NCBI GenBank assembly: GCA_022703155.1
Contig: JAKLEH010000005.1
Location: forward strand, 1 to 39,694
Length of the DNA: 39,694 bases
Direction of reading: 5' to 3'
Source: Patescibacteria group bacterium
GTDB taxonomy: Bacteria; Patescibacteriota; Patescibacteriia; 2-12-FULL-60-25
Translations under genes and position numbers: made by a program
In this document: positions 6,893 to 14,758 of the stretch, one piece after another
Numbering within the stretch: position 1 is the first letter of the stretch
How the letters are laid out: each line of letters begins with the position of its first letter
Notes under the pieces: model-generated
Told to the model about the DNA's origin: nothing
What the model saw: only the letters and a program-made list of their open reading frames with translations
Database searches by the model: none

Positions 6893-6980
6893 AGGGAGAT
6901 ACTTCCGACTTTATGTCGGAACATCAACCGAGGTCGTTGATGTATCGCCGAGCTCAGCTCGGAGTGACATCTCATTTCGG

Positions 6981-7500: not shown

Positions 7501-7577
7501 CGGGCTATAGCGCAGTTGGCTAGCGCGCTTGCATGGGGTGCAAGAGGCCGTGGGTTCAAGTCCCACTAGCCCGACCA
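7501..7577 (+). tRNA. tRNA-Pro (anticodon GGG), CCA encoded
   Basis: The cloverleaf is complete: acceptor CGGGCTA/TAGCCCG, D-arm gcgc-agttggcta-gcgc, anticodon stem CTTGC/GCAAG with loop ATGGGGT (anticodon GGG), T-arm GTGGG-TTCAAGT-CCCAC, discriminator A and encoded CCA. The C1-G72 start is typical of bacterial tRNA-Pro. Its 3' half is duplicated 364 bp downstream. Confidence 0.95.
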
Positions 7578-7624
7578 TCGCGTTGAACGCGACCATCAAA
7601 AAGGACCAATTTGGTCCTTTTTGA
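7532..7624 (+). repeat. 93-bp direct repeat, left copy (tRNA-Pro 3' half plus terminator)
   Basis: Identical by eye to 7896-7988. It starts at the anticodon stem-loop and includes the 3' half of the tRNA, a gcgttgaacgc hairpin and the terminator. Confidence 0.95.
7598..7622 (+). terminator. terminator of tRNA-Pro
   Basis: AAAAAGGACCAA-tt-TGGTCCTTTTT. A second identical copy lies at 7962-7986 in the right repeat. Confidence 0.85.
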
Positions 7625-7626
7625 GT

Positions 7627-7632
7627 TATAAT
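7627..7632 (+). promoter_or_regulatory. -10 box for the leaderless GIY-YIG gene
   Basis: TATAAT ends 7 bp before ATG 7640, which predicts transcription starting at the start codon. No clear -35 and no SD are present. Confidence 0.55.
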
Positions 7633-7639
7633 TGTCCTT

Positions 7640-7879
7640 ATGTTTTACGTTTACGTTTTGCGCAGCCTTAAAACGGGTCGTCGCTACGTTGGTCAGACGA
7701 ACGATTTGTGGCGCAGGTTCCAAGAGCACGAAAGCGGCATGACAGAATCCATCAAGCATCAGACGCCGTTCGCAATTGAACGTGTTGAGTTGCATGCGGA
7801 CAGGATTGGGGCCATAAAACGCGAAAGATGGCTGAAGTCGGGTGTTGGCAGGGAATGGTTGGATGATACGAACGGCTAG
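7640..7879 (+). CDS. GIY-YIG superfamily nuclease (UPF0213/YhbQ-like single-domain)
   Basis: This 79-aa protein consists of one GIY-YIG domain: YVYVLRS at the N-terminus, YVGQTNDLWRRFQEH with the catalytic-type Arg, a conserved Glu in ERV, and a C-terminal KRERWLKSG helix. Family members are small DNA nucleases, and similar domains power homing introns and some mobile elements. The gene occupies the unique part between the two tRNA-Pro repeats, so it is the natural candidate for mobilising them, although stand-alone YhbQ-type proteins are also common chromosomal genes. No SD; TATAAT just upstream predicts a leaderless mRNA. The stop lies in ggctag, which resembles the tRNA D-arm. Confidence 0.9.
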   Translation: MFYVYVLRSLKTGRRYVGQTNDLWRRFQEHESGMTESIKHQTPFAIERVELHADRIGAIKRERWLKSGVGREWLDDTNG

Positions 7880-7895
7880 CGGTCGCCGCGGCGAC

Positions 7896-7941
7896 CATGG
7901 GGTGCAAGAGGCCGTGGGTTCAAGTCCCACTAGCCCGACCA
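7896..7941 (+). pseudogene. tRNA-Pro 3'-half fragment
   Basis: An exact copy of tRNA-Pro from the anticodon arm to CCA, without the acceptor 5' strand and D-arm. It cannot form a tRNA. Confidence 0.9.
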
Positions 7942-7988
7942 TCGCGTTGAACGCGACCATCAAAAAGGACCAATTTGGTCCTTTTTGA
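7896..7988 (+). repeat. 93-bp direct repeat, right copy
   Basis: Identical by eye to 7532-7624 (offset 364 bp), including the terminator hairpin. Confidence 0.95.
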
Positions 7989-14740: not shown

Positions 14741-14758
14741 ATGTCGCGTTAAACGCGA

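Follow-up and report, generated by a model that had tools for sequence, protein, structure and literature searches.

A tRNA-Pro(GGG) locus in the analyzed window, a 39,694-nucleotide stretch of a Patescibacteria genome, probably carries a homing-type mobile element specialized on tRNA genes, a reading drawn from comparative sequence analysis to which we assign a probability of roughly 0.7. The locus is one case of an arrangement that recurs across Patescibacteria: a cassette made up of one GIY-YIG gene and a full-length tRNA that looks functional, set within or next to the split remnants of the native gene for the same tRNA. Eight GIY-YIG matches lie in the window genome, which spans 1.23 Mb at 98% completeness. 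The parts of the window locus are as follows:

7501..7577, + strand: intact tRNA-Pro(GGG) (ARAGORN; Rfam tRNA, 65.8 bits)
7532..7624, + strand: left copy of a 93-bp direct repeat, comprising tRNA nt 32-77, palindrome and terminator
7578..7592, + strand: 15-bp palindrome TCGCGTTGAACGCGA, directly at the tRNA CCA end
7595..7624, + strand: terminator-like tRNA hairpin and T-run, left copy (repeat search)
7640..7879, + strand: GIY-YIG nuclease gene, 79 aa, a lone catalytic domain (Pfam PF01541)
7874..7881, + strand: D-arm remnant GGCTAGCG of a broken tRNA-Pro copy, with the same junction in relatives G033 and G029
7882..7895, + strand: 14-bp perfect palindrome GTCGCCGCGGCGAC within the tRNA remnant, replacing the 5′ anticodon-stem strand
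7896..7941, + strand: tRNA-Pro 3′ remnant, nt 32-77
7896..7988, + strand: right copy of the 93-bp direct repeat

An earlier note on this DNA described perfect 93-bp repeats around a lone nuclease gene, and most of that description holds. The two copies (7532-7624 and 7896-7988) agree at every base, with the match ending precisely at both borders. The repeat includes the terminator, as claimed; its start, placed by the note at the anticodon stem-loop, falls at tRNA nt 32, which is inside the anticodon arm and not where the anticodon stem begins. The sole recognizable gene between the copies is the 79-aa GIY-YIG gene (Pfam E 3.4e-10, 40.5 bits, curated cut-off 22.6), and no integrase gene was found between them. 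The D-arm piece and the perfect palindrome reported ahead of the right copy are both present. D-arm piece and right copy together form one remnant interrupted by a hairpin, and the TAG stop of the nuclease gene (7877-7879) is part of the D-arm remnant GGCTAG. Variant homologues of the GTCGCCGCGGCGAC hairpin occupy the corresponding position in G033, G029 and a third relative, G035. In the window genome no exact further copies were listed, and matches carried one or two mismatches. Because the repeats are identical, the intact window tRNA is indistinguishable from the native one, and since the native 5′ part is no longer separate, the locus reads as intact tRNA, nuclease gene and 3′ remnant. 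No second GGG gene was found in the window genome, where other full-length matches were other Pro-like tRNAs. Three of its eight GIY-YIG genes adjoin tRNAs. Besides the window gene, one ends on tRNA-Gln(CTG), upstream of which lies another copy of this tRNA bearing a hairpin, and a third, truncated, follows tRNA-Met. Chance similarity is ruled out by the controls and by the same layout at many tRNA isotypes in related genomes. An assembly artefact is unlikely, since the architecture is repeated in independent genomes and the 93-bp repeat is shorter than the usual read length.

Element-free and element-bearing alleles of one tRNA-Pro locus appear to exist within the genus. Both states of the tRNA-Pro(GGG) locus that the earlier note envisaged were found in relatives, intact in G032 and occupied in G033. 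In G032 the gene is uninterrupted, with the 3′ flank of 16S rRNA behind it; the same flank in G033 comes after a split tRNA-Pro gene. This comparison concerns one species pair at one locus, with flanks that match over 27 bp upstream (93%) and 165 bp downstream (82%). The occupied locus reads, in order, 5′ remnant with two hairpins, linker, complete tRNA-Pro, nuclease gene, hairpin and 3′ remnant, and its cassette is bracketed by a 39-bp perfect direct repeat with a hairpin inside. The acceptor stem of the cassette tRNA (CGGGCTG..CAGCCCG) differs from that of both remnants (CGGGCTA..TAGCCCG) by a compensatory pair, G-C against A-T, so the cassette tRNA is not simply the native gene. This difference between replacement and native tRNA is seen in G033 and is not visible in the window, where the copies are identical. 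A related state occurs in G035, which has the left junction of G033 and a whole tRNA and lacks the nuclease gene, as expected after later nuclease loss. The earlier note proposed a minimal element of the homing type whose insertion restores the tRNA, and the related genomes support this, with one refinement: the best-resolved case carries a complete replacement tRNA, more than the 3′ half.

Linkage to tRNA genes is characteristic of one nuclease subfamily. Our survey covered the GIY-YIG matches of 41 genomes of the family, each taken together with 1.5 kb of flanking sequence; several surveyed contigs are Ca. Uhrbacteria in public records, and the window genome stands near Ca. Uhrbacteria. The GIY-YIG tree separates two subfamilies. 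In one, 60/66 genes adjoin a tRNA, always on the same strand, compared with 0/27 genes near a tRNA in its sister (Fisher 6e-18); linkage here means a same-strand tRNA at most 450 bp upstream or abutting downstream, which chance would produce for about 1% of genes. Two layouts occur. Either the tRNA comes first and the nuclease gene follows 19 to 440 bp behind (UP), or the nuclease gene comes first and runs into the tRNA 5′ end or stops tens of bases short of it at most (DN), its stop codon often being part of the tRNA. The earlier note suggested looking for this subfamily beside 3′ fragments of other tRNAs, and it is indeed found at tRNA genes of many isotypes with remnants. Linked isotypes include Pro, Gln, Glu, Asn, Asp, Arg, Ser, Trp and Phe, as well as Val, Tyr, Ala, Gly, His, Leu, Ile and Met, and they cluster on the nuclease tree (0/200 shuffles as low). 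In a wider sample of the phylum, 19/29 best matches (window genome excluded) adjoin a tRNA or tmRNA, as do most Patescibacteria relatives in a named set, three of them after tmRNA.

Some relatives occupy other sites. The earlier note held that close relatives at non-tRNA sites would speak against its reading; such sites were seen in part, after tmRNA, inside 23S rRNA and after CCCCGTTAGA. GIY-YIG genes lie immediately after tmRNA genes on the same strand at L104, L105, L119, L321 and L322. One relative (L040, GIY-YIG at 1501-1716) lies within a gene for 23S rRNA, with CCCCACACCTTTCAG on one side and AAGGTGTGGGG on the other. A further set (L025, L307, L308, L311, L314, L317, L319, L324, L330, L333 and, in Bacteroidota, L146-L176) is mostly preceded, in place of a tRNA, by a conserved CCCCGTTAGA or ACCCCGTWGGAT motif; no clear motif of either kind precedes the gene of L307, and at least once, in L168, the motif is seen as a palindrome half, ATCCAACGGGGT..ACCCCGT. 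By eye, the motif-preceded gene follows a truncated integrase-like frame in several Bacteroidota.

Broken copies of the same tRNA commonly accompany linked nuclease genes. Pieces of the linked tRNA were found outside the tRNA-plus-nuclease cassette in 38/62 linked rows, one of which (L087) has a second complete tRNA-Ile and no remnant. Shuffled tRNAs gave 0.2% per flank, and tRNAs without a nearby nuclease gene had pieces beside them in 8/66 cases (p 5e-9), a control set that is not random and in which several of the eight positives lie in tRNA clusters. Some splits are clean and complementary: cassettes divide nt 1-17 from nt 18-77 in both L068 and L052, and nt 1-22 from nt 23-59 in L054. At L068 the element forms a tandem array of tRNA-Pro(TGG), nuclease gene, tRNA 3′ part, identical nuclease gene and tRNA 3′ part, and the terminator of the last remnant differs from the inner copies. 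Remnants are themselves interrupted by perfect, GC-rich hairpins, mostly in or beside tRNA loops. Among 32 insertions in remnants, 28 have a perfect stem 6 bp or longer (mean 7.8, compared with 4.0 in shuffles) and 23 start within one of the intervals that we delimited for the D-, anticodon and T-loops. About 24 of the 62 linked genes have no remnant, and for these a non-mobile link to the tRNA may apply.

The window protein resembles known nucleases in its catalytic domain. Its AlphaFold model (pLDDT 88.9) is similar to the I-TevI catalytic domain, Slx1 and UPF0213. Alignments show Y5, Y16, G18, R26 and E62 as invariant and H30 as invariant or nearly so; the catalytic Tyr, Arg and Glu of the GIY-YIG domain are conserved, and the predicted structure is that of a GIY-YIG fold. 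The gene is encoded outside any intron or intein, like those of free-standing homing endonucleases: scans of the window and of tRNA-linked loci gave no Rfam intron, and the group I intron endonuclease model TIGR01453 scored 21.6 bits, below the NCBI cut-off of 56.05. The window protein matches PHROG homing endonucleases weakly (E 5.7e-4). The idea that phages or plasmids carry the window element was considered and rejected: tblastn of the window protein gave no match in the phage collection, and plasmid matches are confined to the tRNA part. IMG/VR held two loci for one related clade and none for another.

We infer a cycle of cutting, transfer and mobility from these arrangements. The nuclease would cut an uninterrupted tRNA gene, and repair of the break from element-bearing DNA would bring in the cassette; the native gene would then stay split, leaving the cell dependent on the element-borne tRNA. 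More speculatively, the hairpins might remove the cleavage site in the remnants, conferring immunity, and might also block restoration of the native gene by recombination. Among the points against homing, the intact tRNA keeps the presumed target, so that the element would have to escape its own nuclease, and the 79-aa window protein has no recognizable separate DNA-binding domain. We only tentatively entertain the fuller version, in which a selfish element destroys an essential, often single-copy tRNA gene while carrying its replacement, hairpins serve as both immunity and a lock against reversion, and the same nucleases elsewhere spread hairpins at tRNA and tmRNA 3′ ends.

Palindromes also occur apart from remnants, at the 3′ ends of intact tRNAs. 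Other lineages of the tRNA-linked subfamily show no remnant; they carry palindromes directly after the CCA end, with a sequence typical of each nuclease lineage. In the window genome, the palindrome TCGCGTTGAACGCGA directly adjoins many other tRNAs as well, and TCGCGTTNAACGCGA stands at the CCA end of many tRNAs in that genome and its relatives without a nuclease gene, for instance at tRNA-Val(CAC) (window 14744-14758) and likewise in L196-L212. Palindromes abut tmRNA in the same way, again without a nuclease gene. No Rfam family beyond tRNA and rRNA reached its gathering score in the tRNA-nuclease stretches, where most sub-threshold matches overlap the tRNAs themselves. Three candidate identities for the CCA-end palindromes are a functional trailer of the tRNA, mobile hairpins and the insertion signal of this lineage. 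Two further palindromes were noted: CGAGCTCAGCTCG lies just 3′ of the 16S rRNA gene (window 6949-6961), and CCGAGCTCAGCTCGG was seen by eye in the 5′ portion of an apparent RNase P RNA gene (L240, about position 251).

These palindromes suggest the best-surviving alternative, which we nevertheless consider improbable: a structure-specific GIY-YIG enzyme moves hairpins, and the palindromes are mobile units placed at tRNA loops and 3′ ends, comparable to REP/RAYT. RAYT is an HUH/Y1 transposase, not a GIY-YIG protein. The likeness lies in short palindromes that are dispersed over the genome and coupled to a small nuclease-like gene (PMC3733652). In keeping with a hairpin mover, several genomes have palindromes directly at the CCA ends of tmRNA and numerous tRNAs; palindromes also lie in or beside remnant loops and adjoin GIY-YIG genes with lineage-specific sequence, and the fold search also returns Slx1, a cutter of branched DNA. 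However, the window genome shows no clear dispersal of the remnant hairpin family (GTCGCC..GGCGAC), and the cassette architecture demands more than hairpin movement.

The nuclease could instead serve the host, acting on the neighboring, co-expressed tRNA in processing, quality control or copy-number control, with remnants as by-products of tRNA-gene turnover. Such a role would suit the strict same-strand linkage, the DN layout with its reading frame ending on the tRNA 5′ end, the remnant-less cases and the hairpins found at many CCA ends even without a nuclease. It sits poorly with the distribution of the genes, which number from 0 to 10 matches per family genome, are patchy even within a genus and at tRNA-Pro, and include truncated or stop-containing members, and with the best family matches, which, although weak, are to group I intron and phage homing endonucleases. 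We regard this explanation as unlikely.

Slightly less likely still is an ordinary local duplication, the alternative the earlier note had itself raised, whereby host recombination copied the tRNA 3′ half and terminator across a bystander nuclease gene. The window alone would fit this, as its two 93-bp copies are identical and no other sequence is duplicated, and some nuclease-free tRNAs, several in tRNA clusters, also have tRNA pieces beside them. Simple duplication does not explain the recurrence, however: across some 20 genera the layout reappears at many isotypes together with this one nuclease subfamily, it is much rarer elsewhere, and neither the clean complementary splits with a cassette between them nor the unoccupied locus of G032 agrees with it. 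An integrase-driven tRNA island that lost its integrase is very improbable, for although an intact tRNA with a 3′ fragment is the classical island signature, no second gene was recognized in the cassettes examined, and breakpoints are found in the D-, anticodon and T-loops and on both sides of the tRNA, rather than at the 3′ end alone.

A homing-type element at tRNA genes, our preferred reading, has partial precedents, the closest known being phage SegB and the mORFs of fungal mitochondria that replace gene ends. SegB of phages T4 and T6 is described as a free-standing GIY-YIG homing endonuclease beside tRNA genes of many isotypes that was shown to cut within tRNA genes and to cause tandem amplification of the tRNA-segB unit via microhomology between the tRNA 5′ end and the segB 3′ end (PMC13096335 and 2008 work cited there). 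The present family shares the free-standing GIY-YIG gene beside tRNAs of many isotypes, and the L068 array resembles that amplification. SegB differs in residing in phage genomes; the available text of that report mentions neither hairpin insertions nor a split native tRNA with a replacement copy (PMC13096335), and the 79 aa of the window protein make up a single domain, with no match in the phage collection. In mORFs of Glomus and Allomyces mitochondria, an endonuclease gene (LAGLIDADG, or GIY-YIG in atp9) within an essential gene brings a foreign gene end, while the native end remains as a duplicate downstream of the endonuclease gene (PMC3630166). The shared feature is an endonuclease gene that comes with a replacement gene part and leaves the native part behind. 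However, mORFs affect protein-coding mitochondrial genes and replace the 3′ end alone, whereas the elements described here affect bacterial tRNA genes, carry a complete tRNA in the best case and have hairpins in the remnants. GIY-YIG genes have also been reported from rRNA insertion sequences of CPR bacteria, outside group I and II introns; the authors doubted spread by homing and did not mention tRNA (PMC11270868). Those insertions and L040 alike place GIY-YIG genes in stable-RNA genes of Patescibacteria. An earlier description of tRNA-linked elements was not found in the literature searched, which left out preprints and most subscription journals.

If the homing reading is correct, the tRNA set of Patescibacteria would have been repeatedly rewritten by selfish elements, and an essential RNA gene would have been replaced wholesale by a cassette of less than 500 bp. 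It would also provide a function for the many small GIY-YIG genes in these bacteria, which reach up to 16 profile matches per genome.
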